Shown piece by piece: positions 40,822 through 59,875 of a stretch of DNA of 64,000 nucleotides. The notes beneath the pieces were generated by a model, which saw only the letters and a list, made by a program, of their open reading frames with translations, ran no database searches and was not told the origin of the DNA. Origin of the DNA: Chryseobacterium sp. MYb7 (GTDB taxonomy: Bacteria; Bacteroidota; Bacteroidia; Flavobacteriales; Weeksellaceae); contig NZ_PCOU01000005.1 in NCBI RefSeq assembly GCF_002979455.1, forward strand, positions 1 to 64,000, written 5' to 3'. The position numbers were made by a program, and so were the translations under genes. How positions within the stretch are numbered: position 1 is the first letter of the stretch; every line of letters starts with the position of its first letter.

Positions 40822-40945
40822 AGTAGATATGGGTTTCTTGTTCCCGAGTTATGTATTTATCATAGTCAATAATAATCCGGGTTATTAATAGGAAGAAAAG
40901 ATAAGAATTTTATTAATATTCTGTATTAATGTGAGTTTTGTGTTC

Positions 40946-41023
40946 CGGGATTTCGAGTTTGCTATATTTTTTGGAAAACAAATCTCGATGTTATCTATAA
41001 GACCCCCGAATCTCGAAATCCCG
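40946..41023. repeat. Inverted repeat element between cphB and iaaA
   Basis: Perfect 12-bp inverted arms CGGGATTTCGAG (40946-40957) and CTCGAAATCCCG (41012-41023) enclose 54 bp of AT-rich DNA. It lies 10 nt after the cphB stop and could act as a hairpin or be a small mobile (MITE-like) insertion. Confidence 0.6.
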
Positions 41024-41032
41024 CACCCTTCA

Positions 41033-41923: not shown

Positions 41924-42069
41924 GGTACAAAATTAAAAAATAATTAACATTCTTTGGCGAATTTCGTGCCATCTTTAGTTGATTTTTAATGTTTTAGGAA
42001 TGTTAATTAAAATTAATATTTTTTTAATAAATCTTTAATTGTGGTATGGTTTCATTTAGGGTTTTGCAT

Positions 42070-42077
42070 TATCTTTG
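42070..42077 (+). promoter_or_regulatory. -7 element of the cphA promoter
   Basis: TATCTTTG matches TAnnTTTG; 45 nt before the cphA start. A TTG at 42039-42041 is 28 nt upstream, longer than the usual spacer, so the promoter call is tentative. Confidence 0.4.
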
Positions 42078-42121
42078 GCTATGAAAGGAGTTATTATTAA
42101 ATGTTAAAATGCCAATAGACT

Positions 42122-44925: not shown

Positions 44926-46344
44926 ATGAAAAAGGCACTATTTATTTTCTTTCTTTATTTTTCTGTACAGTCTTATTCTCAAAACTATATTCCGGCAAAG
45001 CTGGATAGTATAACGAGTGTCTATAAGAATAAAGGAGAATATGAAAAGGTTTTCCAATACAATATAGCTGCACTTCAGTATTATAAAGAACATGATAACC
45101 CCGAGGGAGAGGCTTTGGCTAATATTAATATTGCTAATGCCCTTTCTACCTTTGATGAGCACCAGAAAAGCCTGCATTATCTGGATGAAGCTAAAAAGCA
45201 ACTTAAATTAATCAATAATAATGGACTGAATGCCAGATTGTGTAATGAAATTGCAAGAAATTATGCTTTTTTAGGGCTTTATAATCAGGCTAATATTCAA
45301 CTCAATAAATCGATAGAATATCTTAAGCATGCCCCTGATACAAAAGAGAACAGAAATTCTTTATTTTTTGTGTATATCTGGAAGTGGTCCAATTTTGAGG
45401 ATTTAAAACTCCCGGATTCTATTAACGCAATGCGGAAAAAAGGACTAAAAGATTTTCCCAATGAGCCTAAAATTTATGTAAGAATTGCAGAGCAGTTTTT
45501 ATCTAAAAAACAACATCTTGATTCCGTAGAATATTACCTGAATAAGGCATCTGTACTGGCTGTAGAAAATAACAGTTCTCTTCACGCCTACGGAGCTATT
45601 GCAACAAGACGTGGAAACCTTTATACTCTGAAAAAAGATTATCCAAAGGCGCTTGAATATTATCAGGAATCTTTACCCATCTATCTGAAAATAAATCGTG
45701 GTGCAGATATTATAGATACTTATAAAAAGATCTATCAAACTTATCTGGCTTTACATGATCTTCCAAAAGCGAATGAATATCTGGCAAAATATACTGAACT
45801 CAACGACAGCATTCAGTCTGGAGAAAGAAAAGCGGTTGCTTCTGTTGTGAACAATCTTGCTGTTGAACAGGAAAAAGAGCGAAATAATCTCTATCTAATT
45901 ATTGCTGCTATTGCTGGTATTGCAGTAGTATCTCTTGTTGCAGTAGTTATGATCCGGAGACGTAATAAAGGAAGAGATAAGTTACTTGAAGAACAGAAGA
46001 AAATAATTAATGAAAAAATAGTAGAAACAGATCAACTGAAAAAGAAAATAGATACCTCTATTAATGATTTGGCTAAAATGGCCACATCCAATAACCCATT
46101 TTTCATAAGTAAGTTTAAAGAAGTATATCCGGAATTTTATGAAAAGCTAACTTCACAATATCCCGAACTTACCAGTCATGATATAAAATTTATCGCTTAT
46201 GTAAGGCTTAATCTTACCAATAAGGAAATCGGACAATGTGGAAATGTAACAGTAAGGGCTGTTGAAACCAAAAAATACAGACTTAAGAAGAAACTAGAAT
46301 TACCAACTGATATGGACTTAGGAACCTGGGTTTCAGAATTATAA
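44926..46344 (+). CDS. TPR protein with transmembrane helix and C-terminal HTH
   Basis: 472 residues. A signal peptide (MKKALFIFFLYFSVQSYSQ) precedes about 270 residues of tetratricopeptide-type repeats (AALQYYKEHDNPEGEALANINIANAL..., then ALEYYQESLPIYLKINRGADIIDTYKKIYQTY), one transmembrane helix (LYLIIAAIAGIAVVSLVAVVMI, about residue 325), a coiled linker, and a cytoplasmic LuxR-like helix-turn-helix (SHDIKFIAYVRLNLTNKEIGQCGNVTVRAVETKKYRLKKKL). This architecture is common in Bacteroidetes membrane-bound regulators. It follows cphA on the same strand after a terminator, so it may regulate something local; the target is unknown. Confidence 0.85.
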   Translation: MKKALFIFFLYFSVQSYSQNYIPAKLDSITSVYKNKGEYEKVFQYNIAALQYYKEHDNPEGEALANINIANALSTFDEHQKSLHYLDEAKKQLKLINNNGLNARLCNEIARNYAFLGLYNQANIQLNKSIEYLKHAPDTKENRNSLFFVYIWKWSNFEDLKLPDSINAMRKKGLKDFPNEPKIYVRIAEQFLSKKQHLDSVEYYLNKASVLAVENNSSLHAYGAIATRRGNLYTLKKDYPKALEYYQESLPIYLKINRGADIIDTYKKIYQTYLALHDLPKANEYLAKYTELNDSIQSGERKAVASVVNNLAVEQEKERNNLYLIIAAIAGIAVVSLVAVVMIRRRNKGRDKLLEEQKKIINEKIVETDQLKKKIDTSINDLAKMATSNNPFFISKFKEVYPEFYEKLTSQYPELTSHDIKFIAYVRLNLTNKEIGQCGNVTVRAVETKKYRLKKKLELPTDMDLGTWVSEL

Positions 46345-46351
46345 TTAAAAT

Positions 46352-46384
46352 AAAAATGCCTCAGGTATTTCTGAGACATTTTAT
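46352..46384. terminator. Terminator between the TPR-HTH and beta-lactamase-like genes
   Basis: 12-bp hairpin AAAATGCCTCAG / CTGAGACATTTT with one mismatch and a 6-nt loop; between convergent genes. Confidence 0.8.
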
Positions 46385-46393
46385 TGTGATTGA

Positions 46394-47563
46394 TTATAAT
46401 TTTTCAGACTTTTCTATATAGGATAAGAGTTTATAAGCAATGTCAATCCTTTCAGCATTAGGATAATTTTTATTGGCAAGAATTACGATACCAATTTTTT
46501 TCGAAGGAACATACATTACATACGCTCCAAAACCATTGGTAGCTCCTGTTTTATTGATCAGTACATCGAGTTTCGGTTTTTGATGAGGAAGGATTTCCTT
46601 TACAGGATTAGGTTTAAAGGCCATATCCGCTGAATTTCCTTTTTGAAGCTTTTCCAGTGTTACAGGGTAATTATATTGTTCCCAAATAAGATCCTGTGTC
46701 ATTTCTGAGGTGTTAAAATAGCCGGTATGGGTATTCATTATTGCGGCAGATAATTTACTGTCAATGCTTCCAATTCCCATATTAGCATCCACAAAAGTAA
46801 TCATATCCTGTGTGCATGATTTCACTCCATAAGCTTCATCAGCCAAAACTTCAGGGTTTAAACGTATAGGTTCATTATTTTTATTGTAACCGAACGCATA
46901 TTGACTCATATTTTCAGCTGGTACTGTGTAAAATGTATTATTTAATCCCATTTTAGCAAAAACATTTTCAGTCATAGCTTTGGAAAAAGGCTGTTTAAAT
47001 GATTTTCCGGCGATAATCCCTAACAGACCGATGCTTGGATTCGTGTACATCCTTTGAGTACCTGCCGGATAATCAGGCTTCCATGTATTATAATAATTGA
47101 TGAGTTGTTCATTATTGGTCACCTCCTCAGGTAACTGGAGCGTAAATCCACCTGCGGTATGTGTTCCAAGATTATATAGCTTTATTTGGTCAAAAGCGGT
47201 GTTTTTAATTTCGGGCATATATTTGCTCACTGGGTCAGATAGGTTAAGTGTTCCGTTCACATGTGATAAACTGGCTAAAGTAGCCGTGAATGTTTTGCTT
47301 ACAGAGCCCAGCTCAAATAACGTTTTATTGGTAACTTCTATCTGGTCTGCTTTTGAAGCCAGTCCATAATTGAAAAAAGTATGTTTTCCGTCTATCGTTA
47401 TGGCAATACTCAACCCTGGAATTTCATTTTTCTCCATGACAGGTTTCACCAGAGCATCCAAATAATTATTAAGATCTGACGCCTCCTCTTTCTTGGGATT
47501 ATTACAGCTTGATAAAAAAGATAAACATAATACCGCAACAGATATGTTTTTTAAACTTCGCAT
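46394..47563 (-). CDS. Class C beta-lactamase-like serine hydrolase lipoprotein
   Basis: 389 residues. Lipobox LSSC at residues 17-20 predicts a lipoprotein. All three class C motifs are present: SVSK at 87-90 (Ser87 nucleophile), YTN at 173-175, and KTG at 337-339, with the family features LFELGSVSKTFTA and GFGAYVMYVP. It could be a true AmpC-type beta-lactamase or a related D-Ala carboxypeptidase or esterase; substrate is not told by the motifs. No AmpR-type regulator is adjacent. Confidence 0.82.
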   Translation of the reverse strand: MRSLKNISVAVLCLSFLSSCNNPKKEEASDLNNYLDALVKPVMEKNEIPGLSIAITIDGKHTFFNYGLASKADQIEVTNKTLFELGSVSKTFTATLASLSHVNGTLNLSDPVSKYMPEIKNTAFDQIKLYNLGTHTAGGFTLQLPEEVTNNEQLINYYNTWKPDYPAGTQRMYTNPSIGLLGIIAGKSFKQPFSKAMTENVFAKMGLNNTFYTVPAENMSQYAFGYNKNNEPIRLNPEVLADEAYGVKSCTQDMITFVDANMGIGSIDSKLSAAIMNTHTGYFNTSEMTQDLIWEQYNYPVTLEKLQKGNSADMAFKPNPVKEILPHQKPKLDVLINKTGATNGFGAYVMYVPSKKIGIVILANKNYPNAERIDIAYKLLSYIEKSEKL

Positions 47564-47740
47564 AATTTTAAGATTTTATAATTGAATTTTTTACTTGTGT
47601 ATACAGTGAGAAATTTCCTAAAGAATTTTAAGCGAAAGTAAAATAAATTTGCAGTATTATCTCTACTACAATTGCACTACAGTTATCTATTTAATTGAAT
47701 ATTAGTATTTTGTAATTTTTTTGAAGAGCGTTTGAAATAG

Positions 47741-47821
47741 CAGGGAACTGTTAGAAAAGAATTAGCTGAAAGAATTTTATCCTTAGAAAAAGGTGATGGT
47801 GAAGGGGTATATGCTAAATAA
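47741..47821 (+). pseudogene. Possible C-terminal remnant of a plus-strand gene
   Basis: After a TAG at 47738-47740 an open stretch encodes QGTVRKELAERILSLEKGD and a few more residues to TAA at 47819-47821, and a strong plus-strand terminator follows at once. There is no start codon. The helical, protein-like composition and the terminator in the right orientation suggest the end of a decayed gene. The family is not recognised. Confidence 0.35.
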
Positions 47822-47860
47822 GTTTCGGCTGAACCTTTGGTTCAGCCGAAACCTGTTTTT
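47822..47860 (+). terminator. Strong plus-strand terminator
   Basis: Perfect 14-bp stem GTTTCGGCTGAACC / GGTTCAGCCGAAAC with a 3-nt loop, followed by six T on the plus strand. There is no T run on the minus strand, although the neighbouring intact genes on both sides are minus-strand genes. Confidence 0.8.
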
Positions 47861-47913
47861 TCAAAAATTAAAAGATATACTATTATTTACAGTAATTGTA
47901 TCAGGTTTTACTC

Positions 47914-48372
47914 TTATAAGCTTTCCCAGGTTTTCTTAATTTTCTGCATTTTCACAAGATAAAAATACAAAGGAATTAATTCAAGCCTTATTGTAAAGCT
48001 AATATTGGAAAAAGTAAAAGGAATAATGGCCATCATGATTAAACAAATACCAATACCTATGATTGCATCAATTATTGCGGCCTGTACAGCCCATTTTTGT
48101 TCAAACCAAAGTCCATAGGCAACAATACCTTTATATAAAAAAAGGAAAGATATCAAAAGACCTATCATTGAGTAGGGATGGTTTGCTTTTATTCCATATA
48201 AGGATAAACTAATATGAGTTAAAAAAGAACCTGCCATCAACAAAATAGCAGCTATTGCTCCTCCAATTAAAAAGAACCATAAGAAAATTTTAATCCACGT
48301 GGGTAATAGATTTCTTCTTCGGGTTAAAGTAGTGTTTTCAAATTCTGCAAAAGGTGTTGACCTTTCTTCCAT
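47914..48372 (-). CDS. Small membrane protein at the end of the ligase cluster
   Basis: 152 residues from the Met at 48372 (MEERSTPFAEFENTTLTRRRN); the open frame extends upstream into the next gene but the internal Met gives a clean start. Four hydrophobic helices (FLWFFLIGGAIAAILLMAGSFL, YSMIGLLISFLFLYKGIVAYGL, AAIIDAIIGIGICLIMMAIIPF, and a shorter final one). Not recognised. It starts 22 nt after the glutathionylspermidine-synthase-like gene and so is likely co-transcribed; it may be a transporter-like or anchoring partner. Confidence 0.65.
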   Translation of the reverse strand: MEERSTPFAEFENTTLTRRRNLLPTWIKIFLWFFLIGGAIAAILLMAGSFLTHISLSLYGIKANHPYSMIGLLISFLFLYKGIVAYGLWFEQKWAVQAAIIDAIIGIGICLIMMAIIPFTFSNISFTIRLELIPLYFYLVKMQKIKKTWESL

Positions 48373-48394
48373 GTATATTAGTTTTATAAATTGT

Positions 48395-49573
48395 TTATCC
48401 AAAAAAAGCATTCGAGCTTCCGATCCAAATGGCATCTTTTTTATTAAAATCCACATTTACCATAGCGGCCTTGGTCATTCTTCCCAGATTTTCCAATAGG
48501 ATAGGACGTTCGTCATTTTCCCGCCAAATATACAATAAACGAATTTCTGCTTTTGAGAATTCTCCGTTGATATCTTCAAAGATAGGTTCATAAGTTACCT
48601 TTCTCTGCAGAATATAGTTTTCTTTATCCTGAATGGCATCTGTAATTTCCTTTGTTGGATTCAAATTAACTCCACTTCCTGCAAACGAAAATAAGGGTTT
48701 CAATACAAAATCGTCAAGGTTTTCATTTTCCGGAAACTCATGCAGGAAATAGCTTTTCGGAACAAATTGATGATTTAATAAAGGTAAAAGGAACTTTGAT
48801 ATTTTAAAGAACCAGTTCGGATGGGTAATCCACTTGACATCAACTTCCTCACGGAAATTAAATTCTGTAACAAGATCCGGAATATTGTCCAGCTCATCAA
48901 ATATAATACGGTTGTAGATTCTTTTGATTTCTGTCAGCTTCCCATTGTTTTCATAATAGAGTTTCTTGCCTTCCTTTTTCACTTTGGTAAGACAAACTGT
49001 TTTTATTCCTAATAATTTCTCTGTTAAAGCAAAATCAATAGCTGTTTTTTGTTTTTCCGGGAATATTTCAAGCAGAATCACATTTTCAGGGTTTTCATCA
49101 CCTACAATTAGCTCCTTCAAATAGTTTTTAAAGGTTTCATGAGGCATAGGATTTTTGATTTCTGAAAGAAAAGGATACACTTCACAGAATGTTTCTTCAT
49201 ATACTTTCTGAAAAGCATACAAAGAAGGGAATGCCTGAAGCTCTATCAGCTGAGGTTCTATTTCTCCGTTTTCGCTTTTGCAGACTCCAAAATCTATGGT
49301 GAAAAAATGAGGCTGATCGGTATCATTGGGAACTCTACAGTTATCAGGGATCGCCTTTTGAAGTAATTCTTCCGGCATGGCCTTAATCTGGCTGATAATA
49401 CTTTCGCTGGCATCTATGAGCTTACTTTCAAATTCTTTAGTAAGAAAAATAGGACTTTCTGAAACTCTGAAAGTGGGAGCTATACCTCCTTTTTGCAGCA
49501 ATATATCTTTTAATTGATCGTATTTTTCATACGAAAACTCCTGATTGTACTGTTTTCTGTATTTTGGAATCAT
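48395..49573 (-). CDS. Glutathionylspermidine-synthase-like ATP-grasp protein
   Basis: 392 residues. The overall layout fits a circularly permuted ATP-grasp of the glutathionylspermidine synthase C-terminal type: an early acidic segment HFFTIDFGVCKSENGEIEPQLIELQAFPSLYAFQ, a middle with KRIYNRIIFDEL, and a late ATP-binding part LDDFVLKPLFSFAGSGVNLNPTKEIT with KAEIRLLYIW. It should form an amide bond using ATP; substrates are unknown. A terminator and an inverted-repeat element separate it from the upstream amidotransferase gene, so it starts a separate transcript with the membrane protein behind it. Less certain than the other ligases of the cluster. Confidence 0.7.
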   Translation of the reverse strand: MIPKYRKQYNQEFSYEKYDQLKDILLQKGGIAPTFRVSESPIFLTKEFESKLIDASESIISQIKAMPEELLQKAIPDNCRVPNDTDQPHFFTIDFGVCKSENGEIEPQLIELQAFPSLYAFQKVYEETFCEVYPFLSEIKNPMPHETFKNYLKELIVGDENPENVILLEIFPEKQKTAIDFALTEKLLGIKTVCLTKVKKEGKKLYYENNGKLTEIKRIYNRIIFDELDNIPDLVTEFNFREEVDVKWITHPNWFFKISKFLLPLLNHQFVPKSYFLHEFPENENLDDFVLKPLFSFAGSGVNLNPTKEITDAIQDKENYILQRKVTYEPIFEDINGEFSKAEIRLLYIWRENDERPILLENLGRMTKAAMVNVDFNKKDAIWIGSSNAFFG

Positions 49574-49593
49574 ATTTTTTTTCTTTTGTGATG

Positions 49594-49623
49594 TTAAAAA
49601 AATCGAGCATTTCTGCCCGATTT
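49594..49623 (-). terminator. Terminator inside the ligase cluster
   Basis: On the minus strand a 10-bp stem AAATCGGGCA / TGCTCGATTT (one G-U pair) with a GAAA tetraloop and seven T. It ends the transcript from the upstream genes 200 nt after the amidotransferase stop and just before the glutathionylspermidine-synthase-like gene. Confidence 0.75.
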
Positions 49624-49629
49624 GATTTT

Positions 49630-49804
49630 ACCACAAAAGGCACAAAAGTTTTAGAATATAAAAGTTTAAAATGCACTTTTTATAGTTATGTTTATTTGAT
49701 ATGAAAATTCTTAGATTTTCAAAAAAAGCTTAAGTGTTCTTTTCAGCAGCTTTTATGATTCTTATTGGGCTCTTTTTCGAAATCGCTTTTGTGGCTTTTG
49801 TGGT
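49630..49804. repeat. Inverted-repeat element in the ligase cluster
   Basis: 19-bp inverted arms at 49630-49648 (ACCACAAAAGGCACAAAAG) and 49786-49804 with one mismatch enclose a 175-bp element without an open reading frame. It has the form of a small MITE. It occupies the spacer between the amidotransferase and glutathionylspermidine-synthase-like genes. Confidence 0.65.
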
Positions 49805-49822
49805 TTATAATAAGTTGAACTT

Positions 49823-50656
49823 TTAAACCAAAGATTCAGCTTCTTTCAAAATGTTTTTTTTTGCAAACTGAAGAAATCTCGGAAGAATTTGATTTCTGGT
49901 TAGAATAATTTTGTCTTCATCATCTATTCTGTCCATCGTTTCAAGATATTTTTCCATTCCGAAGTTTTCAATCATGGCTTCTCTGTTTTTTTCATCTTTC
50001 AGATTTTCAATCAGAGATTCAGGGTTGGCTTCAGGATGAAACTGTGTTCCGAATATCTCTTCCGAAAAACGAACCGCCATTATTGCTCTTTCCAGATTAA
50101 TGTGAGGACGGAATTTTTCAATCGCCATAATCGTCATTCCAAGTTCTTCAAAACGTTCGTGATCGGGCTCAATAAACTGATAGGCTCTGGAATCTACTGC
50201 ATAAAAAGGATCCTGAAGATTTTTGAATAAAAACTCTTCTCTGCCTTCATCAGTTTTATGAACAGGCATTACTCCGAAAGAATAAGACTTTCTTTTGCAG
50301 ATATTTCCCAGGTTCCAGTGGATACTTGCCAATTGGAATGAATGGCAAATCAGGAAAAGGTATTTTTTATCTTCACTGTATTTATTATGCTCAAAAACGG
50401 AATCTAAAAAATGGGCAAATCTGTCTTCCCAGGCAAGACCTTCACGATGCGGGTTCCCCGGACCTCCTGAAGAAATGAAAATATCAAAATCTCCTATCTC
50501 CGGCATTTCATCCTTAAATCTCACATCAAATGTCTTGATTATCACATTTTCTTCAGAGTTCTGCTGAAAAGCTTCGGAAATCTCTTTAATGTTTCTAAAA
50601 CCTTGATTCACATGGTTGTTATTCATGTCCAGCAGAGCAATTCGAATATCTTTCAT
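49823..50656 (-). CDS. Class I glutamine amidotransferase-like protein
   Basis: 277 residues. The catalytic triad of GATase1 is present: Cys104 in FLICHSFQLA, His207 and Glu209 in FGTQFHPEA, plus the oxyanion region SSGGPGNP. No synthase domain is fused, so it either supplies ammonia to a partner ligase or hydrolyses a gamma-glutamyl bond, as PuuD-like enzymes do. Its neighbour 33 nt upstream is the GCS2 ligase, which forms gamma-glutamyl bonds. That pair makes the hydrolase reading attractive, but it is inference. Confidence 0.85.
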   Translation of the reverse strand: MKDIRIALLDMNNNHVNQGFRNIKEISEAFQQNSEENVIIKTFDVRFKDEMPEIGDFDIFISSGGPGNPHREGLAWEDRFAHFLDSVFEHNKYSEDKKYLFLICHSFQLASIHWNLGNICKRKSYSFGVMPVHKTDEGREEFLFKNLQDPFYAVDSRAYQFIEPDHERFEELGMTIMAIEKFRPHINLERAIMAVRFSEEIFGTQFHPEANPESLIENLKDEKNREAMIENFGMEKYLETMDRIDDEDKIILTRNQILPRFLQFAKKNILKEAESLV

Positions 50657-50689
50657 TACATCATATTTTTTGCAAAGTTACCAAAAATA

Positions 50690-51811
50690 TTATGAAGCGG
50701 TTTCACCATGTGTTATGCCATACTCCGTTTCAGAGATCATATAATCAACGACTTTCGTCAGATCACCTGTTTCCTTAAAAATCTGAAGCTGTCTGTCTGC
50801 GCCGGTTCCGTTTTCCAGAATCTTCCAGGCATATTCCACTTCGTGACGGCATCCTAAATCGTCTACCACATCATCAATAAACTCTAAAAGTTCTTTTAAT
50901 AAATGAGGATAAGGTACAGATTCTTCTTTCCCGAAATCTATCAGATGGGCTTCGATACCGCTTTTGGAGGCACGCCATTTGTTTTCGTTCAACAACAGTC
51001 TTCTGTAGCTTCTGAAACTTAAATTCTGCTGGTGAAGTTTATAGATTTTGGCAACAAGACTTTGCATAATGGCAGCAAGACATACCGTTTCATCAATTCT
51101 CAAAGGCATATCACAGATTCTGAATTCAATCGTAGGGTAGAATGGGTGAACACGCAGATCCCACCAGATTTTCTTTGCATTATCGATGGTTCCTGTTTTT
51201 ACCAGAAGATCTACATAGCTGTCAAATTCTGCCAGTGAGTTAAAATAACTCGGAATACCAGTTCTTGGGAATTTAACAAAAATTTCCTGTCTGTACGATT
51301 TAAAACCGGTATACCTTCCAATCCAGAATGGTGAATTGGTAGAAAGGGCATATACGTGAGGAAGAAAATAACGCATTACATTCTGAATTCTCACACCTTC
51401 TTCACGATTAGGAATTCCAATGTGAACATGTAATCCGAAAATAAGGTTTTCACGGGCAACATCTCCCATATCATCCACAATCTTGATGTATCTTTCTCCC
51501 TGAGTGATACTGTTGTCTGACCAGTGTGAAAACGGGTGAGTACCTCCTCCGGAAACACGAAGTCCCTGCTCATGAGCAATATTAATGAGGTGACGTCTTA
51601 AATTTGTTAATTCTGCTCTGGCTTCCTGAATATTCTGGCAGATGCCCGTTTCCATTTCAATCATGGATTCGTGCATTTCGTGCTTTAAATTTTCACTTAA
51701 AACAGCTTTGCCACCTTCAATGATTTTCGAAACGTGAGAAACAAGATCTCTGCTCTCAACATCAATGATTTGATATTCTTCTTCAATTCCAATAGTAAAC
51801 TGATGATGCAT
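50690..51811 (-). CDS. GCS2-family carboxylate-amine ligase (YbdK-like)
   Basis: 373 residues of the glutamate-cysteine ligase family 2 (COG2170). Visible family features: IGIEEEYQIIDVESRDLV at the start, HESMIEMETGICQNIQEAR, VSGGGTHPFSHW, NLIFGLHVHIGIPN, WWDLRVHPFYPTIEFRICDMP. It should join glutamate, or another carboxylate, to an amine with ATP. E. coli YbdK has weak gamma-glutamylcysteine activity; the natural substrate in Bacteroidetes is unknown. Sits 32 nt from the ATP-grasp gene upstream and 33 nt from the amidotransferase downstream, clearly one operon. Confidence 0.93.
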   Translation of the reverse strand: MHHQFTIGIEEEYQIIDVESRDLVSHVSKIIEGGKAVLSENLKHEMHESMIEMETGICQNIQEARAELTNLRRHLINIAHEQGLRVSGGGTHPFSHWSDNSITQGERYIKIVDDMGDVARENLIFGLHVHIGIPNREEGVRIQNVMRYFLPHVYALSTNSPFWIGRYTGFKSYRQEIFVKFPRTGIPSYFNSLAEFDSYVDLLVKTGTIDNAKKIWWDLRVHPFYPTIEFRICDMPLRIDETVCLAAIMQSLVAKIYKLHQQNLSFRSYRRLLLNENKWRASKSGIEAHLIDFGKEESVPYPHLLKELLEFIDDVVDDLGCRHEVEYAWKILENGTGADRQLQIFKETGDLTKVVDYMISETEYGITHGETAS

Positions 51812-51843
51812 TTATTTTTGTGTTTTTTAATTTTTTTTCAATG

Positions 51844-52797
51844 TTATTTTATGGAATCTTTCACAAAGGTTCCCCAGGCAATATTAGGTTTCCCCGGAAC
51901 ATATTCCTTAGCTTTTTCTATAGCCAGTTTTGCTGCGTGTTCTATGATCCATGCGAAATTTTCTTCTCCTACAGAATTTCTGTCGGCATCCGGAGCCGGG
52001 TTGCAGAAGTCAATGGCATAAGGAATTCCATCTCTTACCGCAAATTCTACTGTGTTGAAATCATATCCCAACGCTTCATTCATTTTAATCGTATAATCAT
52101 GAATGGTTTTTAGTAATTTTTCAAGTTCTTCACCTTGAGTCTGATGAGTAGTTGCATATCTCAAATGAGGCGCATTTCTCGGTTCATAAGGCATGATGTG
52201 AACGTATTTTCTGCCTAGACAGTAAACCCTGTAATAGTCATCAAAAACAATTTCTTCCTGTACCATCATTACGAGTTGTTCTGTTTCGCCTAGTTTGTTC
52301 CAAAGATCATCCGGATTTTCTACTCTGTAAACACTTTTCCAGCCACCACCATCGTGAGGTTTCATATAAGCTGGAAATCCAACATAATTGAAGATATATT
52401 CCCAGTCGTGGGGAAATTTCAGGTTTCTGAATGATGTTTCCGAAGTATTGTCCGGCCTTTCGTGTGAAGGAAGCAGAACAGTCTTGGGAAGCGGAATTCC
52501 CAGTTTAGACATCAGGGCATTGTTGAAAAATTTCTCGTCAGCACTCCACCAAAACGGATTGTTGATCACATAAGTTCCGTTAAGTGCTGCATTTTTCAGG
52601 TAAGCTCTGTAAAAGGGAACGTCTTGTGAAATTCTGTCGATGATCACTGCATATCCATAATCTGCACCCTGTTCCAGCTTGTCTATATTAACGGGTTCAG
52701 CTACGATTTCTCCACCTCCAAGCTCATTTACTTTGTCTATAAATGCCCAGGGAAACGTGTCTTCCATACCGAAAAGAATTCCTACTTTTTTTGTCAT
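51844..52797 (-). CDS. ATP-grasp ligase 1 of the cluster
   Basis: 317 residues from the Met at 52797 (MTKKVGILFGMEDTFPWAF); the frame is open further upstream but that part does not look like protein. ATP-grasp features: GFPAYMKPHDGGGWKSVYRVENPDDLW (ATP-binding loop), VMMVQEEIVFDDYYRVYCLGRKYVHIMPYEP, and the metal-binding end DFNTVEFAVRDGIPYAIDFCNPAPDADR. Forms an acyl phosphate and then an amide bond; substrates unknown. RimK- or D-Ala-ligase-like in fold. It starts 56 nt after the esterase gene and is followed by GCS2. Confidence 0.85.
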   Translation of the reverse strand: MTKKVGILFGMEDTFPWAFIDKVNELGGGEIVAEPVNIDKLEQGADYGYAVIIDRISQDVPFYRAYLKNAALNGTYVINNPFWWSADEKFFNNALMSKLGIPLPKTVLLPSHERPDNTSETSFRNLKFPHDWEYIFNYVGFPAYMKPHDGGGWKSVYRVENPDDLWNKLGETEQLVMMVQEEIVFDDYYRVYCLGRKYVHIMPYEPRNAPHLRYATTHQTQGEELEKLLKTIHDYTIKMNEALGYDFNTVEFAVRDGIPYAIDFCNPAPDADRNSVGEENFAWIIEHAAKLAIEKAKEYVPGKPNIAWGTFVKDSIK

Positions 52798-52853
52798 AAT
52801 TTTTGTTTTTAAGATGGATGTATATTTTTTTCTATTTGTCTTTTTTATTGTTT

Positions 52854-53567
52854 TTACGAGAAGAATGTTCCTATAAAGGTAGGGAAGACCATTCTCCACA
52901 ACGGCCAGTCGTGGCCGATCCATTTTCTTTCGTCATACCAGAAGTCAATGCCTTTTATCCTTAATATTTCAGCCATTTCCACATTTTTTTCTTTGCAGAT
53001 GTCCTGATCAGAAGTACTTAATACAATGTGCATATGTTTGTACTTCCAAGCTTCATCATTTCTTACAAATTCTCTTGGACAGTTGAAGTAGACCATTTCA
53101 TCAGAATAGCCATCCATGAAGTTTCTTATGCTGAAAGCTCCGGAAAGGCAAAACAGATGGGAAACCACATCCGGAAATCTGAAGGCGAAATTGGCAGCAT
53201 GATACCCTCCAAAACTTGCTCCGGCTACCGCTACACGATGAGTCTTGTGAAGCTTCTGGATATAAGGTACGAATTCCTTGATCAGAAACTGTACATACCG
53301 TTCGTAGTTTCTTATTCTTTGCTGAGGAGAAATTTTATCATCATAAAAACTCCAGCTGTCGATGGTCTGTACATTGTAAAGTTTTACTTTTCCCTGTTCT
53401 ACAAACCAATTGATGCTTCCGTTGAGATGAAAATCATGGTTTTGGGTGTATTGTCCCTGAGAGGTTGGAAACATAATGATAGGATGACCATAATGTCCGG
53501 TCACTTCTACCTTGAGACTTGTTCCCAATATGTTTGAATAATAATCTGTATGTTCTATATGAGGCAT
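52854..53567 (-). CDS. Esterase-family alpha/beta hydrolase
   Basis: 237 residues. The nucleophile elbow GASFGG (Ser118) and a C-terminal His in WIGHDWPLWRM complete the likely catalytic pair; the opening HIEHTDYYSNILGTSLKVEVTGHYGHPIIMFPT matches a bacterial esterase family often found beside ATP-grasp genes. No signal peptide is seen, so it should act in the cytoplasm, perhaps to cut or transfer an ester or amide in the product made by the cluster. Spacing to neighbours is 33-56 nt. Confidence 0.82.
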   Translation of the reverse strand: MPHIEHTDYYSNILGTSLKVEVTGHYGHPIIMFPTSQGQYTQNHDFHLNGSINWFVEQGKVKLYNVQTIDSWSFYDDKISPQQRIRNYERYVQFLIKEFVPYIQKLHKTHRVAVAGASFGGYHAANFAFRFPDVVSHLFCLSGAFSIRNFMDGYSDEMVYFNCPREFVRNDEAWKYKHMHIVLSTSDQDICKEKNVEMAEILRIKGIDFWYDERKWIGHDWPLWRMVFPTFIGTFFS

Positions 53568-53600
53568 TTTTTTGTGTTTAATTTTACTATTGCATTGATA

Positions 53601-53759
53601 TTAATTTGATAAATTCAATTCCTTCAGACTGATCAATGAATTGATACTATGTTTTGCCATTTTCCAAAACTTATTGTTCTCTAAATTATGTTTTAAAGTA
53701 GATTTTCTTGGCAGATTGTATATTATGAATTCAATAACATTTTGAATATCAGGCTTCAT
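53601..53759 (-). CDS. Small 52-residue protein coupled to ATP-grasp ligase 2
   Basis: A short reading frame, ATG at 53759 and TAA at 53601-53603, starting only 3 nt after the stop of ATP-grasp ligase 2. It begins MKPDIQNVIEFIIYNLPRKS and ends ISLKELNLSN; it is basic (seven Lys, one Arg) and has no signal peptide, Cys or Gly-rich tail. The tight coupling and lack of other function for the spacer support a real gene. It might be a structural partner or a substrate peptide for the ligase, but nothing in the sequence proves either. Confidence 0.5.
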   Translation of the reverse strand: MKPDIQNVIEFIIYNLPRKSTLKHNLENNKFWKMAKHSINSLISLKELNLSN

Positions 53760-53762
53760 GAT

Positions 53763-54977
53763 TTAGGAGCTGAGCTTACTGCTTTTAGGAGGCAGAATGT
53801 TTAGCATGTTTGCGTGAATCATTTCTGCAGCAGAATCCAATCTATCCTGTACAATGGAAGCATCGCTGGATTTGTAAACAATCCCGACGTGATAATCTAT
53901 TGGAAGGAATTTTACAACTTCTTCACATTCAAAGCTGCTGTAGTTTGGTTCTTTATCTTTAATAAGTGCTACAATCAACCCGGAATAGTATCCTGTAGGA
54001 GGTGAAACACTATAATCATTACCTCTCAAAAGGGCATCTTCAATCTTAGCCCATTCTCGCCAGATATTAATACCGCTTGAAGCTTCTACCAAATCAGGAA
54101 TATGAGCACCGCCAACCCTTGAAGAAGTTTCCAGGAAATACCATTTTCCGTCTTCTTTTCCACGGATAAATTCGGTATGGGTAGCGCCATTAATCAGTCC
54201 AAAATTGGAAAGTACGCTGGCATTGATTTCTTCTAATGCCTTAAATTCTTCAGAATATCTCCCTAAAGTTTTGGATCTGAATACTCCGCCTTCATGGGAA
54301 ACCTGCATAGGAGGAGCAAGGTATTTCGAAGCGGAAGTGAATATAATCTTTTTATTAAAAGTAAGGCTGTCTACATGGTAAACGTCACCGGGCTTAAAGC
54401 TTTCCAGTAAAAAAAGATGACGTTCTTCACCCAATGTTTCTAATGCCTCAGAAAGCTGTTCTTTGGATGTGATTTTTTTGATTCCTGATGCGGAAGCTTC
54501 GGAGCGGGGCTTTAGCACCCATGGTGAAGGAACTCGGTCTGTAAATTCATTCACTTCATCATCATTGAATACCGCTGTAAATTCAGGAACACTGATTCCT
54601 GAATCTTTTGCTTTTTGGCGCATAGCCAGTTTATCTCTGAAATATCGGTGTGTAGTCTGTCCCATCCCCGGAATACGGAATGTTTCTCTGATTAACGCTG
54701 CTTTTTCAACGTCATAATCATCCAAAGCCACTACAGCATCCACTTTTCTGGTTTTCATCAGGTGGGAAAATCCCTGAATCAGATGCTCCAGATTCCATAC
54801 AGATGGCTTAAGTTCAGGCATATAAAAGGTTTCTTCAATGGCATGCCAGGGCCAATCCTTTTCTTTGAGGTTTTCCGAAGTTACGAGGATGATTTTATTG
54901 CCGAGTTTCTTCATTTCGTCCATAAAATCGTAGCCTTTGTAATAGCACGAAATACACACAATCGTTTTCTTCTCCAT
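53763..54977 (-). CDS. ATP-grasp ligase 2 of the cluster (carboxylate-amine or L-amino-acid ligase type)
   Basis: 404 residues. Central ATP-grasp domain with the ATP-binding loop WVLKPRSEASASGIKKITSKE and the metal site WYFLETSSRVGGAHIPDLVEASSGINIWREW. The N-terminal Rossmann-like part (MEKKTIVCISCYYKGYDF, then VDAVVALDDYDVEKAALIRE) resembles bacterial dipeptide ligases such as BacD-type L-amino-acid ligases, and the C-terminal tail (YYSGLIVALIKDKEPNY) is also of that type. Substrates are unknown. Followed 3 nt later by a 52-codon gene; an inverted repeat lies upstream. Confidence 0.85.
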   Translation of the reverse strand: MEKKTIVCISCYYKGYDFMDEMKKLGNKIILVTSENLKEKDWPWHAIEETFYMPELKPSVWNLEHLIQGFSHLMKTRKVDAVVALDDYDVEKAALIRETFRIPGMGQTTHRYFRDKLAMRQKAKDSGISVPEFTAVFNDDEVNEFTDRVPSPWVLKPRSEASASGIKKITSKEQLSEALETLGEERHLFLLESFKPGDVYHVDSLTFNKKIIFTSASKYLAPPMQVSHEGGVFRSKTLGRYSEEFKALEEINASVLSNFGLINGATHTEFIRGKEDGKWYFLETSSRVGGAHIPDLVEASSGINIWREWAKIEDALLRGNDYSVSPPTGYYSGLIVALIKDKEPNYSSFECEEVVKFLPIDYHVGIVYKSSDASIVQDRLDSAAEMIHANMLNILPPKSSKLSS

Positions 54978-54994
54978 ATAATGTTTTTTAAGAT

Positions 54995-55082
54995 TTAGTG
55001 AATTTTCAAAAATAAAAGCATTTATTTATTATTTTATTAATAGTAAAAAATACAATATTGTGCGTTTTTGAAAATCCACTAA
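54995..55082. repeat. Inverted repeat in the ligase cluster
   Basis: 18-bp arms at 54995-55012 (TTAGTGAATTTTCAAAAA) and 55065-55082 match as an inverted repeat with one mismatch, enclosing 52 bp of AT-rich DNA. It stands between the aminopeptidase and ATP-grasp ligase 2 genes and could be a small insertion or a transcript hairpin. Confidence 0.55.
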
Positions 55083-55118
55083 TCAAGTATACAGAGTTTT
55101 TTTGTAAAAAACTAATTT

Positions 55119-56534
55119 TTAGTGATAATTTTCAATTAAATTCACGAGCAGTTGAACCCCATAACCTGTTGCTGCTTTTTCCCTGGCATAGCCTACATTT
55201 CCGAAGGCTACTCCGGCAATATCCAAATGTGCCCATTTAGGGTGGCTTTCAATGAATTGCTCTAAGAATTTTGCGGCAATAATACAGTCTCCAATTGGTT
55301 TTAAAGAGATGTTTTTAATATCCGCTACATCAGATTGAATATCGTCTTTCCAGACATCCCATAAAGGAAGATTCCAAACTCTCTGGTTAGTTAGATCTCC
55401 GGTTTTGATCAGATTATTTTTCAATTCTTCATTATTGGAGAACATAGCGGCGCAGGTGTCTCCAAACATTCTTACTGAACTTCCCGTTAAGGTAGCCAGA
55501 TCGATCAGGAAGTCTGTTTTGTAGTTTTTAGAAAGATAAGACAGTCCGTCTGCAAGAATCAATCGGCCTTCTGCATCAGTATCAAGTACTTCAATGGTTT
55601 TTCCGTTGTAGGCTGTAATCACATCACTCGGAAGCAGGGCTTTCTCTGAAACAGCATTGTCTGTAATAGGAAGTACAGCAATAATATTCACCGGAAGCTG
55701 CATTTCAGCGGCATAAATTAGAGCTCCTATAACAGTTGTAGCACCTCCCATATCAGATTTCATATAGTGAAGGTTGGCAGAACTTTTAATAGATATTCCT
55801 CCCGTATCAAACAAGACGCATTTTCCTACCAGTCCGAAAGTTTTGGCATTTTTAACCGTAGTTTTATATTCTAAAATAGTGAAAGCGGCATCATAAGCAC
55901 TTCCTTGATTAACGGCTAAATAAGCTCCCAATCCAAGTTCCTCACATTTCTTTCTATTAAAAACAGTATATTTTAATTCATGCTTTTTAGCCAGATTTTT
56001 TAGATAGGCACTGAAAATATCCGGTTTTTTAAGATTAGCAGGTTTGTTAAGCCATTCCTGGCAAGCAGTTTGTCCGTTAATCAGAGCTTCTGTTTTCTGG
56101 CTGATATGGTCTAATTTTTTCTGGCTTAAATTTTCAAAATGCAATTCAAATTTTACATTCCAGAAAGCATGTTTTTTATCAAAAGGATAGTTGTAAGTTC
56201 CTGCCAGAAGTCCTGTTACAAATTCCTCGAATTGTTTTTCATTCAGGAAGTCTGCAAGGGCTAATGTAGGCACTGCCTGCAGTTTTTCTTTCTGTGTCTG
56301 TGAAAATTTAGCAGCCACCTGCTGGATTTCGAAATTTTGTAACGTAGATTTTCCTAGTCCAATGAAATAGGTAATTCCTTCTTCATGGGCATTTACAAAG
56401 ACCTCATATTTCTTTCCTGTAAAGAAAGTGGAAATGTTTTTATTGAAATTTTTACTGGTTTTTGTCCATTCTTCCTCGGTGAATAGATGGAAAACCTGCG
56501 TATAATTTTTGTTTTTTTTATTGATTAGTTTCAT
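55119..56534 (-). CDS. M17 leucyl aminopeptidase family protein
   Basis: 471 residues. The C-terminal catalytic domain holds the two-metal centre of the family: Lys250 and Asp261 (GGISIKSS, MKSDMGGA), and DTDAEGR at 318-324, where the usual motif is NTDAEGR. The N-terminal domain is divergent, as in most members. It releases N-terminal amino acids from short peptides, with Mn or Zn, in the cytoplasm. In this operon it may trim or recycle the ligase product. 72 nt after the esterase gene; 141 nt before the ATP-grasp gene. Confidence 0.9.
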   Translation of the reverse strand: MKLINKKNKNYTQVFHLFTEEEWTKTSKNFNKNISTFFTGKKYEVFVNAHEEGITYFIGLGKSTLQNFEIQQVAAKFSQTQKEKLQAVPTLALADFLNEKQFEEFVTGLLAGTYNYPFDKKHAFWNVKFELHFENLSQKKLDHISQKTEALINGQTACQEWLNKPANLKKPDIFSAYLKNLAKKHELKYTVFNRKKCEELGLGAYLAVNQGSAYDAAFTILEYKTTVKNAKTFGLVGKCVLFDTGGISIKSSANLHYMKSDMGGATTVIGALIYAAEMQLPVNIIAVLPITDNAVSEKALLPSDVITAYNGKTIEVLDTDAEGRLILADGLSYLSKNYKTDFLIDLATLTGSSVRMFGDTCAAMFSNNEELKNNLIKTGDLTNQRVWNLPLWDVWKDDIQSDVADIKNISLKPIGDCIIAAKFLEQFIESHPKWAHLDIAGVAFGNVGYAREKAATGYGVQLLVNLIENYH

Positions 56535-56606
56535 AAATAGATGTTATAGTTTTCTAAGGTCACAAATCATTGCTGTTTGAAAATTTTCTTCAGCAATTTC
56601 ATGCCT

Positions 56607-57728
56607 CTAGTTTTTAGTACTTTGTTGTTGTGGTTTTACTTCTACAGGGTTTTCGGTATTGTCATAGAACAGCCATTCAATAGCTCTTGGGAACTCCTGA
56701 GACCAGTAAAATTCATTATGGGTACCTTCAGGATTGATATTGGTTTTAAATTCAAAATCAAAAAGCTTTTTCTCTTCCCATCTTTTCAGGTATTCTTCAA
56801 AAATGTGAATTCTTTTGACCATTTTAGACCCTTCCTGAGCTCCTCCATAAAGATAAATTTTTGTTTTATAGGGAACCCTGAAATTCATCATCGGGAAGTT
56901 ATTATTCGGTTCTACCCAAAGAGAAGGAGAGAAGATTAATAGCTTGGAATAGACCTCCGGATAAAGAAATCCACTGTATATACTGATCAGTGCACCTAAT
57001 GAACTACCTCCGATTCCGGTATTGTCGCGGTCTTTTTTTGTTCTGTAATTTTCGTCTACAAAAGGTTTTAATGTATCTGCAATAAACCGGATGTATTTTT
57101 TTCCTTCAGAGCCATTGGCCACATGATCATTATCAAAAATATATTCTTTAATTCTTTCTTCGCTTCCATGTTCTATGGCAATGATGATCAGATCACCACG
57201 ACCGTACTCTGCAAGGATAGAGAGTTTCTTATCAATCTCCCAGTTTCCGAATCCGCTTCCTTCATTGAACAGATTTTGTGCGTCCTGCAGGTATAATACG
57301 GGGTAGCTTTTGTCGGTGGTATGATAATCATAAGGAAGGACTGCCCAAACCTTTCGGTATCGGTCAAGCTGTGGAATATAAAATTTTTCGGAAATAACTT
57401 CTGCAATAGGATAGTATTCTTCTTTGAATGGTCCCCAGTTTAATCTCCATTTTTGCACAGAGTCGGAAGTTTTGCCCGCTGATTTTTTTATTTTCCGGTT
57501 GGGGGTTATGTTTCCATACTGGTCCAGTTCCACATTCTCCCAGCCTCCTTTTGTGAATTTGTATTCAATTTCATCAGCAAGCAGCTGGTCTTCAATTTCT
57601 ATAAAATAATTGGAAGGATCTGTCTGTTTGAGCTGGAAATTGTAATCTTTGGGATTCCAGCTGTTGAAATTTCCGGTGATAAATACCGGCCTGTCGTCTT
57701 TTTCTTCTGTATAAAGTTCAAACCTCAT
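56607..57728 (-). CDS. Esterase (Fes/EsterD-like) with N-terminal CBM48/20-like domain
   Basis: 373 residues. The first 85 residues resemble a starch-binding domain (RPVFITGNFNSWNPKDYNFQL...IEYKFTKGGWENVELDQYGNITPNR). The rest is an esterase of the enterochelin-esterase type: SYPVLYLQDAQNLFNE, nucleophile elbow GGSSLGAL (Ser243), and a C-terminal His in EGTHNEFYWSQEFPRAIEWL. No signal peptide. Glycan-binding domain plus esterase next to the glycogen genes suggests a link to polysaccharide, but it could equally serve the ligase cluster, of which it is the first gene on the minus strand. Confidence 0.82.
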   Translation of the reverse strand: MRFELYTEEKDDRPVFITGNFNSWNPKDYNFQLKQTDPSNYFIEIEDQLLADEIEYKFTKGGWENVELDQYGNITPNRKIKKSAGKTSDSVQKWRLNWGPFKEEYYPIAEVISEKFYIPQLDRYRKVWAVLPYDYHTTDKSYPVLYLQDAQNLFNEGSGFGNWEIDKKLSILAEYGRGDLIIIAIEHGSEERIKEYIFDNDHVANGSEGKKYIRFIADTLKPFVDENYRTKKDRDNTGIGGSSLGALISIYSGFLYPEVYSKLLIFSPSLWVEPNNNFPMMNFRVPYKTKIYLYGGAQEGSKMVKRIHIFEEYLKRWEEKKLFDFEFKTNINPEGTHNEFYWSQEFPRAIEWLFYDNTENPVEVKPQQQSTKN

Positions 57729-57928
57729 CGTATGTGTTTAATAAAATAATGATGCTAAATTTATAAAAAAAGATTGTTTTGAAATCATAAAAATGTGAGG
57801 TAAAAAATGATATATTTGATAGAAAGACAAAACACGAAATGTTATTGATAATTATTTGATGGATAATTAACCGCTATTGTCAGTATTTTTCGTAGTTTCA
57901 AAGAAATTATAAATATAAACTGATCTTG

Positions 57929-59875
57929 ATGAATTCTGTTAAAACCTACACGCTTTTCACCGATCATGATGTGTATCTTTTCAAAGAAGGTAGACATTAT
58001 AAGCTGTACGGTAAATTTGGAGCACATTCTGTGGAAAAAGATAGTGTAAAGGGAATCTATTTTTCAGTTTGGGCACCCAATGCAAAAAAAGTTTCTGTAA
58101 TCGGAAATTTTAATAACTGGAATCATAAAGATCATATTTTATTTCCAAGATGGGATGAATCCGGTATTTGGGAAGGCTTTATCGAAGGATTAACCTGGGG
58201 GACATTATATAAATATGCTATTGAAACACCCAGAGGCGAAATTCTGGAAAAAAGCGATCCCTATGCATTAAGTTGGGAGCAGAATATTCAGGCGGCTTCT
58301 CTGGTTTCTACTACATGGTATGAGTGGGATGATCAGGAATGGATGGACAGCCGCTGGGAAAAAAACAGACTGAATGCTCCAATATCAGTCTATGAACTGC
58401 ATCTGGGGTCTTGGGTAAGAGAGGGTGACCAACCCCAACGTTTTTTAAATTACAGAGATATTGCCAAAAAACTGGTTCCTTATATAAAGGATATGGGATT
58501 TACCCATGTGGAATTTATGCCGGTGATGGAATATCCTTACGAGCCAAGCTGGGGATATCAGATTACAGGTTTTTATGCAGCAACATCACGCTTTGGTTCA
58601 CCACAGGATTTGATGTTTCTTATTGATGAACTTCATAGAAACGAAATTGGTGTCATTCTGGACTGGGTTCCATCCCATTTTCCAGGAGATGCTAATGGTC
58701 TTCATCGTTTTGACGGATCATATCTGTATGAACATGAAGATCCGAGAAAAGGATTTCATCCGGACTGGAAATCATATATTTTCAATTACGGAAGAAATGA
58801 AGTCAAATCTTTCCTGATTTCAAATGCCATGTTCTGGCTGGACCGTTATCATGCAGATGGATTGCGTGTTGATGCCGTAACTTCAATGCTTCATCTGGAT
58901 TATTCCAGAAATGAAGGTGAATGGGAACCTAATATATATGGAACGAATGTAAACCTGGAAGCAAAAGCCTTTCTTCAGGAGTTTAATACAGCTGTTTACA
59001 AGGAATTTGGTGATAATATTATGACCATAGCAGAAGAAAGTTCAGATTTTCCTATGCTTACAAAACCTGTTCATGACGGCGGTGTAGGTTTTGGAATGAA
59101 ATGGATGATGGGCTGGATGCATGATACACTGGATTATTTCAAAGAAGATTTTCCTAACCGTAAATTCCATCATCATAAACTGACCTTTGCTTCCATGTAT
59201 ATGTATAATGAAAATTATATGATGCCTTTATCGCATGATGAAGTCGTACACGGAAAGGCAAGCATGATCTATAAAATGAAAGGCGATGAATGGCAGAAAT
59301 TTGCCAACCTGCGGGCTCTATATGTATATATGTATACCCATCCCGGAGCCAAGCTTCTTTTTATGGGGGATGAATTCGGGCAGACCAGTGAATGGAATTT
59401 TACCAGAAGTCTTGACTGGCATTTGCTGGAATATCCCGTTCATAAAGGAATGCAGGAGATGGTGAAAGAACTGAATCATCTGTATAAATCGGAAACGGCC
59501 CTTTATGAAAATCAGTTTGATAAACATGGTTTTGAGTGGGTGGAAGCCGATGATCTCGAAAATTCGGTGTATATCTACCTGAGAAAAGGAAAAAGAAAAG
59601 ATGATGTAATGATGGTTGCTTTAAATCTGGCACCCAAAGTACTGGATTATAAGATAGGAATTCCTGCAGGGACACATTGGCAAGTTGTTTTAAGTTCCGA
59701 TGATGAAAAATACAGCGGAAGCGGAGTAGAACCTGAAATCCTGGACGAAAAATATGAAGAATGGAGAGGATATCCAAAAACAATGACCTTGAAGCTTCCA
59801 CCATTGGCGGGAATTATTTTAAGACAGAAGAAAGATAAAAAGTATAAATTACACAGAATTAAACACAAGAGATAA
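57929..59875 (+). CDS. glgB: 1,4-alpha-glucan branching enzyme
   Basis: 648 residues (GH13). ATG at 57929 is preferred to the TTG just before it. N-terminal CBM48 (YFSVWAPNAKKVSVIGNFNNWNHKDH), the catalytic barrel with the nucleophile region DGLRVDAVTSML, acid/base TIAEESSDFPMLT and PLSHDEVVHGKASM, and a C-terminal beta domain (ENSVYIYLRKGKRKDDVMMVALNLAPK). Makes alpha-1,6 branches in glycogen. First gene of the operon glgB-glgA-lipoprotein-glgC, with a 3-nt gap to glgA. Confidence 0.96.
   Translation: MNSVKTYTLFTDHDVYLFKEGRHYKLYGKFGAHSVEKDSVKGIYFSVWAPNAKKVSVIGNFNNWNHKDHILFPRWDESGIWEGFIEGLTWGTLYKYAIETPRGEILEKSDPYALSWEQNIQAASLVSTTWYEWDDQEWMDSRWEKNRLNAPISVYELHLGSWVREGDQPQRFLNYRDIAKKLVPYIKDMGFTHVEFMPVMEYPYEPSWGYQITGFYAATSRFGSPQDLMFLIDELHRNEIGVILDWVPSHFPGDANGLHRFDGSYLYEHEDPRKGFHPDWKSYIFNYGRNEVKSFLISNAMFWLDRYHADGLRVDAVTSMLHLDYSRNEGEWEPNIYGTNVNLEAKAFLQEFNTAVYKEFGDNIMTIAEESSDFPMLTKPVHDGGVGFGMKWMMGWMHDTLDYFKEDFPNRKFHHHKLTFASMYMYNENYMMPLSHDEVVHGKASMIYKMKGDEWQKFANLRALYVYMYTHPGAKLLFMGDEFGQTSEWNFTRSLDWHLLEYPVHKGMQEMVKELNHLYKSETALYENQFDKHGFEWVEADDLENSVYIYLRKGKRKDDVMMVALNLAPKVLDYKIGIPAGTHWQVVLSSDDEKYSGSGVEPEILDEKYEEWRGYPKTMTLKLPPLAGIILRQKKDKKYKLHRIKHKR

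Follow-up and report, generated by a model that had tools for sequence, protein, structure and literature searches.

A conserved set of ATP-dependent ligases and hydrolases in Chryseobacterium sp. MYb7 and other Bacteroidota predicts a pathway for a small amide-bonded metabolite

Non-ribosomal amidoligase pathways are a known kind of system. The closest described counterpart of the locus presented here is the route from glutathione to glutathionylspermidine and trypanothione, which combines a GCS-type ligase, an ATP-grasp step, a ligase of the GspS/glutathione-synthetase fold and a hydrolase. A survey of amidoligases by Iyer et al. (2009; doi 10.1039/b917682a, cited in an excerpt of PMC4431377) reportedly describes clusters that mix ATP-grasp, COG2170 and amidotransferase genes. 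L-amino acid ligases such as 4wd3 and BL00235 are stand-alone dipeptide makers. For Escherichia coli, RefSeq gives YgiC the product name peptide-spermidine ligase; YgiC and YjfC are called peptide-spermidine ligases in a title cited in an excerpt of PMC12568646 and are also referenced in an excerpt of PMC10948618, and a passage of PMC12506659 describes YgiC as lacking glutathionylspermidine synthase activity. Here we analyze a locus on the minus strand of Chryseobacterium sp. MYb7 (genome G000, 5.15 Mb), positions 47914-57728 of contig C45; the window is the whole analyzed stretch of that contig, positions 1-64000, and letters L, G and C with numbers denote loci, genomes and contigs. Five of the genes in this locus form a core that is almost certainly one functional system, and we assign a probability of roughly 0.6 to the prediction, made from protein families, that it yields a small metabolite with amide bonds which is built and hydrolyzed in the cytoplasm.

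Nine co-directional genes occupy the locus: EST2, M17, GRASP4, EST1, RG, GCS2, GAT, GSPS and a gene for a small membrane protein, separated in this order by 72, 141, 195, 56, 32, 33, 249 and 22 nt. A preliminary description of this DNA had placed ten genes on the minus strand with gaps mostly of 3-70 nt; the strand was right, the count is nine, and the gaps range from 22 to 249 nt with four of the eight above 70 nt. Its list of families was confirmed, with assignments taken from Pfam and NCBIfam and, for RG and GSPS, also from structure models: a GCS2 ligase, two classical ATP-grasp proteins, a GATase1, two esterase-type alpha/beta hydrolases, an M17 peptidase and a membrane protein. The start of RG was set at 52797 and not at 52923, because the latter would overlap the esterase gene EST1. 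The eight enzyme genes are as follows.

EST2, 56607..57728, minus strand: esterase of 373 aa with an N-terminal extension, third gene of the GRASP4-M17-EST2 module
M17, 55119..56534, minus strand: leucyl-aminopeptidase-type peptidase of 471 aa, adjoining GRASP4
GRASP4, 53763..54977, minus strand: L-amino-acid-ligase-type ATP-grasp ligase of 404 aa
EST1, 52854..53567, minus strand: esterase-type alpha/beta hydrolase of 237 aa, first core gene, putative triad S118-D189-H219
RG, 51844..52797, minus strand: RimK/Ddl-type ATP-grasp ligase of 317 aa
GCS2, 50690..51811, minus strand: YbdK-family carboxylate-amine ligase of 373 aa
GAT, 49823..50656, minus strand: class-I glutamine-amidotransferase-fold protein of 277 aa, C104-H207-E209
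GSPS, 48395..49573, minus strand: glutathionylspermidine-synthase / eukaryotic-glutathione-synthetase-like ligase of 392 aa

The nearest named loci belong to Chryseobacterium (98% identity in RG), and RG is present in 34 of the 36 genomes of this genus, the window genome included, vs 1 of 23 genomes from elsewhere in the order. We compared the best 80 loci in named genomes, among at least 590 confirmed relatives and all Bacteroidota by title. The core order EST1 > RG > GCS2 > GAT > GSPS was complete and on one strand in 69 of them; at the same locus and on the same strand as RG we found EST1 and GCS2 77 times each, GAT 73 times and GSPS 72 times. Nine of the 11 loci without the complete order are stretches shorter than 9 kb, and the other two are Runella loci with neither GAT nor GSPS nearby. 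In genome G245 (L198) the GAT-GSPS pair lies on another contig. Genera carrying core loci among these 80 include Chryseobacterium, Elizabethkingia, Dyadobacter, Runella, Maribacter and Polaribacter. In a second set of 41 loci, hand-picked for spread from 46 and including the most divergent, EST1 accompanied RG in 21 cases, GCS2 and GAT in 19 each and GSPS in 16.

To follow the genes beyond shared loci, we counted them in 395 evenly drawn Bacteroidota genomes. RG was counted at E < 1e-20, and with the exclusion of matches at E 7e-4 (G265) and 8e-4 (G144) the number of genomes carrying it went from 136 to 134. GSPS occurred in 114 genomes, 110 of which also had RG (38.7 expected); RG and GCS2 were found together in 114 genomes (43.8 expected), GSPS and GCS2 in 109 (37.2 expected), and all three ligases in 105. 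Of the 110 genomes that have both RG and GSPS, 63 carry the pair within 12 kb, always on the same strand; in the remaining 47 the two genes are separated by over 12 kb or sit on separate contigs, where contig breaks may mask some linkage. Three further genes were counted in 80 genomes, half of them carrying RG and half lacking it, hand-thinned from a random 100 of each kind: GRASP4 was present in 24/40 vs 0/40, GAT in 26/40 vs 0/40, and the EST1 family in 38/40 vs 3/40. Within family label f3, GSPS was found in 6/6 genomes with RG and in 1/19 without, among those listed. Because the order is conserved and the genes co-occur even when scattered, it is strongly supported that the enzymes form one pathway. 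The preliminary description had claimed a single pathway and had set a search for conserved synteny as a check on it, with missing co-occurrence in related genomes as a refutation; both the gene order in 69/80 loci and the co-occurrence across genomes bear the claim out. It would instead be very improbable that these are neighboring housekeeping enzymes, each with a separate known substrate: every family is known and linkage is lost in many genomes, as such a view would have it, but the co-occurrence persists where no linkage is visible.

The four ligases differ in how clearly they are recognized. GCS2 belongs to the YbdK/GCS2 carboxylate-amine ligase family, scoring over the curated cut-offs (NCBIfam NF010039, 535 bits, cut-off 371; TIGR02050, 303 bits, cut-off 176); its nearest solved chains are YbdK (1r8g, E 2.8e-65) and then plant glutamate-cysteine ligase (E 6e-7). 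This family membership is the sole ground on which the product may be called gamma-glutamyl. The nearest solved chains to GRASP4, all three at E <= 1e-8, are L-amino acid ligases (among them 4wd3, E 2.5e-23, and BL00235, 3vot, E 3e-11); unlike those stand-alone enzymes, GRASP4 is tied to M17 and the core.

RG had no Pfam match at E <= 0.01, and its NCBIfam matches were all sub-threshold (TIGR00768, E 2e-8, below cut-off). With its model (pLDDT 87), Foldseek retrieved Ddl, LysX/ArgX, RimK and PsnB, all 50 matches listed being ATP-grasp proteins. RG is therefore taken as an ATP-grasp protein on the combined basis of the sub-threshold NCBIfam matches, weak profile matches and the model. Its K146 (kept in 13/14 aligned sequences), E251 (14/14), D263 (12/14) and N266 (11/14) are, we assume, the ATP-grasp catalytic lysine and acidic positions; throughout the alignments, the positions taken as catalytic were kept except in three divergent RG sequences and in the L070 esterase. 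The likeness of the model to RimK, LysX/ArgX and the graspetide ligase PsnB would also suit a RimK-like RG that tags or glutamylates a protein or ribosomal target, with the other enzymes supporting it. Against this, the open reading frame (ORF) at 53601-53759, the sole ORF below 60 aa surveyed, is without full-length conservation, and we consider protein tagging improbable. This 52-aa ORF has a full-length match in the same genome only; of nine further, partial matches, eight cover 23-28 residues and one covers 45. It was rejected, for want of full-length conservation, as the precursor peptide that a graspetide (RiPP) cluster would have beside its ligase. A RimK-type ligase in a polysaccharide locus is described in an excerpt of PMC11036162, where it is not shown to be RG. 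As separate observations, the RG homologues of L055, L057, L124, L130, L152 and L159 carry C-terminal tails of 60-160 residues with 58-79% Lys/Ala/Pro/Thr, a tail that the window RG does not have, and the RG frames of G141, G168 and G419 contain one internal stop each, through decay or sequence error.

GSPS was described in the preliminary account as permuted ATP-grasp-like; it is better characterized as glutathionylspermidine-synthase-like. Its Pfam GSP_synth match (E 0.0025, 17.5 bits) is under the gathering cut-off of 29.3, and the assignment is supported by the model (pLDDT 88), which matched 3n6x, 8fbz, 1m0w, 2io7, 7uk6 (YjfC) and 2vpm in Foldseek. The PDB chains matched at E <= 0.001, 22 in total, are without exception glutathione-synthetase-like, GspS/TryS, YjfC or Cp1B; the TM scores (query) of 0.48-0.64 imply that domain angles differ from those of the fold matches. 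GSPS resembles E. coli YgiC/YjfC both in fold (7uk6, E 1.1e-9) and in a weak profile comparison with YgiC and Gss (E 0.0019, probability 14%). It adjoins the GCS2, RG and GAT core, whereas E. coli ygiC adjoins tolC and ygiB. In this weak alignment D94 and E111 of GSPS, both invariant, correspond to Gss D318 and E330; the other two Gss residues compared are R316 and N332.

Among the hydrolases, EST1 (Pfam Esterase, E 1.4e-9) keeps all positions of its putative triad in 13/14 aligned members, and GAT (Pfam GATase, E 1.8e-9) has a Cys-His-Glu triad that is invariant in 13/13. M17 (Pfam Peptidase_M17, E 1e-104) carries the motif DTDAEGRL, and EST2 matches Pfam Esterase at E 1.6e-22. EST2, M17 and GRASP4 are a second module. 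In Weeksellaceae and some further lineages it adjoins the core, whereas in others it lies elsewhere in the genome. The module stands upstream of EST1 (Weeksellaceae-type), convergent with the core (L057, L160) or off-core (L241), and these last three loci have all three genes together. M17 is also beside GRASP4 in L155 and L158, where GRASP4 follows GSPS and M17 is on the opposite strand; it was not found beside GRASP4 in other unlinked GRASP4 loci (e.g., L237-L239).

Taken together, the locus would be one instance of a pathway conserved in Bacteroidota, which forms successive ATP-dependent amide bonds and later disassembles the metabolite. GCS2 would use a carboxylate, on the side-chain or elsewhere, of what is probably glutamate and couple it to an initial amino acid or amine. 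RG, with GRASP4 where it is present, would attach or provide another unit, an amino acid or a dipeptide, and GSPS may cap the chain with a final amine, much as glutathione is turned into glutathionylspermidine. GAT, with its intact triad, and M17 would constitute a hydrolytic arm releasing the building blocks, and the esterases EST1 and EST2 may handle an acyl or ester intermediate. Pfam found no transporter or carrier domain in the five core proteins; together with the ligase families, this leads to the small cytoplasmic amide or peptide product that the preliminary description had also proposed, a product that is predicted rather than observed. Likewise predicted are the action of all these enzymes on a single molecule, the sequence of their steps, their cytoplasmic site, and the gamma-glutamyl and amine identity of the parts.

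This scheme parallels the glutathionylspermidine and trypanothione route, from which it differs in that the hydrolase has a GATase fold, GSPS is a separate family and GCS2 belongs to the YbdK branch. No CHAP amidase was matched by Pfam among the window proteins. The canonical glutathione pathway was rejected because GshB (PF02955) had no match in the window genome at E <= 1e-15; among 30 hand-picked genomes with RG, five had a GshB match, one of them strong. The bacillithiol pathway was rejected as well, since bshA does not track the cluster, whose genes are of other families: in the 80-genome set plus G000 and minus G369, bshA was present in 37/41 genomes with RG vs 38/39 without, and the window genome has it away from the cluster. 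Five of the 80 genomes are bshA-less, and four of these have RG (G164, G215, G291, G326), too few to interpret. Whether the product ends in a polyamine or similar amine is a tentative matter, for which we see some but clearly less than even chance; homospermidine is the major polyamine of Flavobacteriaceae according to an excerpt of PMC3072086. We hold just as tentatively the more specific proposal of a gamma-glutamyl-X-Y-(homospermidine or other amine) conjugate, parallel to bacillithiol, that GCS2, RG, GRASP4 and GSPS would build and that GAT and M17 would recycle.

Arrangements outside the standard core bear on what GAT does. The blocks GCS2-GAT-GSPS (L193, L194, L200, L201) and GAT-GSPS (L197-L199) occur away from RG, and GSPS is found without GAT or GCS2 alongside in other scattered genomes. 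In the case of L201 (genome G209), GCS2-GAT-GSPS is retained and RG was not found in that genome. Such adjacency of GAT and GSPS where RG or GCS2 is elsewhere or absent, as well as the invariant GAT triad, could be explained by glutamine-dependent amidation: GAT would pass ammonia to GSPS, or to c18, a permuted ATP-grasp protein below the Pfam cut-off, so that a short peptide is amidated at its terminal carboxylate, as it is in osmolytes like N-acetylglutaminylglutamine amide. We regard this as unlikely, though as the foremost of the alternatives: 12 of the 14 genomes that have RG and lack GAT still have GSPS, GAT stands without GSPS and beside c18 in L235 and L236, and an M29-type peptidase sits in the place of GAT in L071. 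The last replacement, seen at the locus only, is consistent with a hydrolytic role of GAT. L235 and L236 represent a distant form with the co-directional order RG > c18 > GAT > esterase c6 > GRASP4, which indicates that GRASP4 is part of the system far from the lineage of the window, too.

Other neighbors are reminiscent of scavenging of the Puu type, in which an imported amine or xenobiotic would be gamma-glutamylated by GCS2 and processed, and the glutamyl group then removed by GAT, whose fold is as in PuuD. An amidohydrolase gene lies ahead of GSPS in L181, L183, L185 and L202 and between GCS2 and GAT in L066 and L068. A sodium:solute symporter and GSPS share one open frame of 867 aa in L177 and are adjacent genes in L232; in L228 and L229 the symporter/GSPS frames are partial and may be fusions broken by sequence errors. 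As all four loci come from family label f43, we count them as one event. The nearest solved relatives of the symporter are choline transporters; for the pathway favored here, too, this kinship hints that a small amine or a zwitterion is involved. Pfam found neither an amine oxidase nor an aldehyde dehydrogenase among the nine proteins of the window locus, however, and four ligases exceed the needs of a catabolic route, which makes scavenging of this type a rather unlikely explanation, too.

Several observations weigh against a single conserved pathway with the product proposed here. The complete core order was found in only 8 of the 41 loci picked for spread; the 69/80 are from the best-match set, which favors near relatives. 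GSPS is missing from 24 and GCS2 from 20 of the 134 genomes with RG, and without RG there are 15 genomes with GCS2 and four with GSPS in the sample of 395. Likewise, of the 40 genomes with RG, 14 lack GAT and 16 lack GRASP4. All genome counts are phylogenetically non-independent, and relatedness inflates all p-values. At the level of residues, the L070 EST1 has lost two triad positions, with G and N instead, and in the weak Gss alignment the position of N332 is Gln in 12/12 GSPS sequences and that of R316 varies (T, A, Q, V), so that the substrates of GSPS may differ from those of GspS. The symporter stands beside GSPS in only four of the nine loci examined of f43, and its best NCBIfam equivalogs, below cut-off, are pantothenate and proline symporters.

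Two further features lie in or next to the gene row and are placed outside the pathway.

Small membrane protein, 47914..48372, minus strand: weak DUF2165 match, neighbor outside the conserved system
Inverted-repeat element, 49631..49803, no strand assigned: between GAT and GSPS, outside the pathway

The membrane gene most likely starts at 48372, giving 152 aa as in L022, and its Pfam DUF2165 match (E 0.0015) is below cut-off. The preliminary description had included it in the cluster; the gene is there, but apart from the window genome only L022, L095, L104 and, in part, L105 have it among the loci examined, and it is not a member of the conserved system. The inverted-repeat element is MITE-like, has 18-base termini on opposite strands and makes up the greater part of the 249 nt that separate GAT from GSPS, a distance of 33-111 nt in six relatives; the folding z-score of 49590-49822, which spans it, is -4.5. 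When genome G000 was searched with the full-length element, elsewhere only the termini matched, as a pair on C12 (233999-234156), as singles on C14 and C15 and partially on C23. A riboswitch was rejected, Rfam giving no match at gathering score in 46000-59000, and the Bacteroidota-type promoter consensus TTG N17-23 TAnnTTTG had no site on the minus strand of 46300-58200, where shuffles expect 0.5. A mobile origin was rejected, as RG and GSPS had no plasmid match and six proteins no PHROG match.

The window also contains a cyanophycin island at 39979-44752, with an isoaspartyl-peptidase-like gene, cphB and the cyanophycin synthetase gene cphA (1259 bits, NCBIfam cut-off 850). In L166 (Hymenobacter) and L064, homologues of cphB and iaaA are found close to the core at its opposite flank. 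With these genes next door, and with cphA within reach in 11 of the best 80 loci (Chryseobacterium records and Halpernia L118), the core might be thought to belong to a cyanophycin-related system. In the sample of 395 genomes, GSPS and cphA occurred together 21 times vs 14.4 expected (p 0.04, uncorrected); RG and cphA, taken as a control, did so 22 times vs 17.0 expected (p 0.11), which is no clear association. As cphA is moreover about 66 kb from RG in G385 and 0.88 Mb from it in G441, the genome of L064, we find a cyanophycin connection hardly credible.

We found no publication on this cluster in the literature covered, which was seen in part and did not extend to the 2009 amidoligase survey, so that an earlier printed prediction is possible. 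The co-inherited gene set predicts one metabolite across a sizeable part of the Bacteroidota sampled (RG in 134/395 genomes, the three ligases in 105/395), and with four ligases and four hydrolase-fold proteins in hand, the question of the product is open to direct testing. If the conjugate proposed above is true, about a quarter of Bacteroidota species (105/395) would make a small-molecule cofactor or storage compound that represents a new class.

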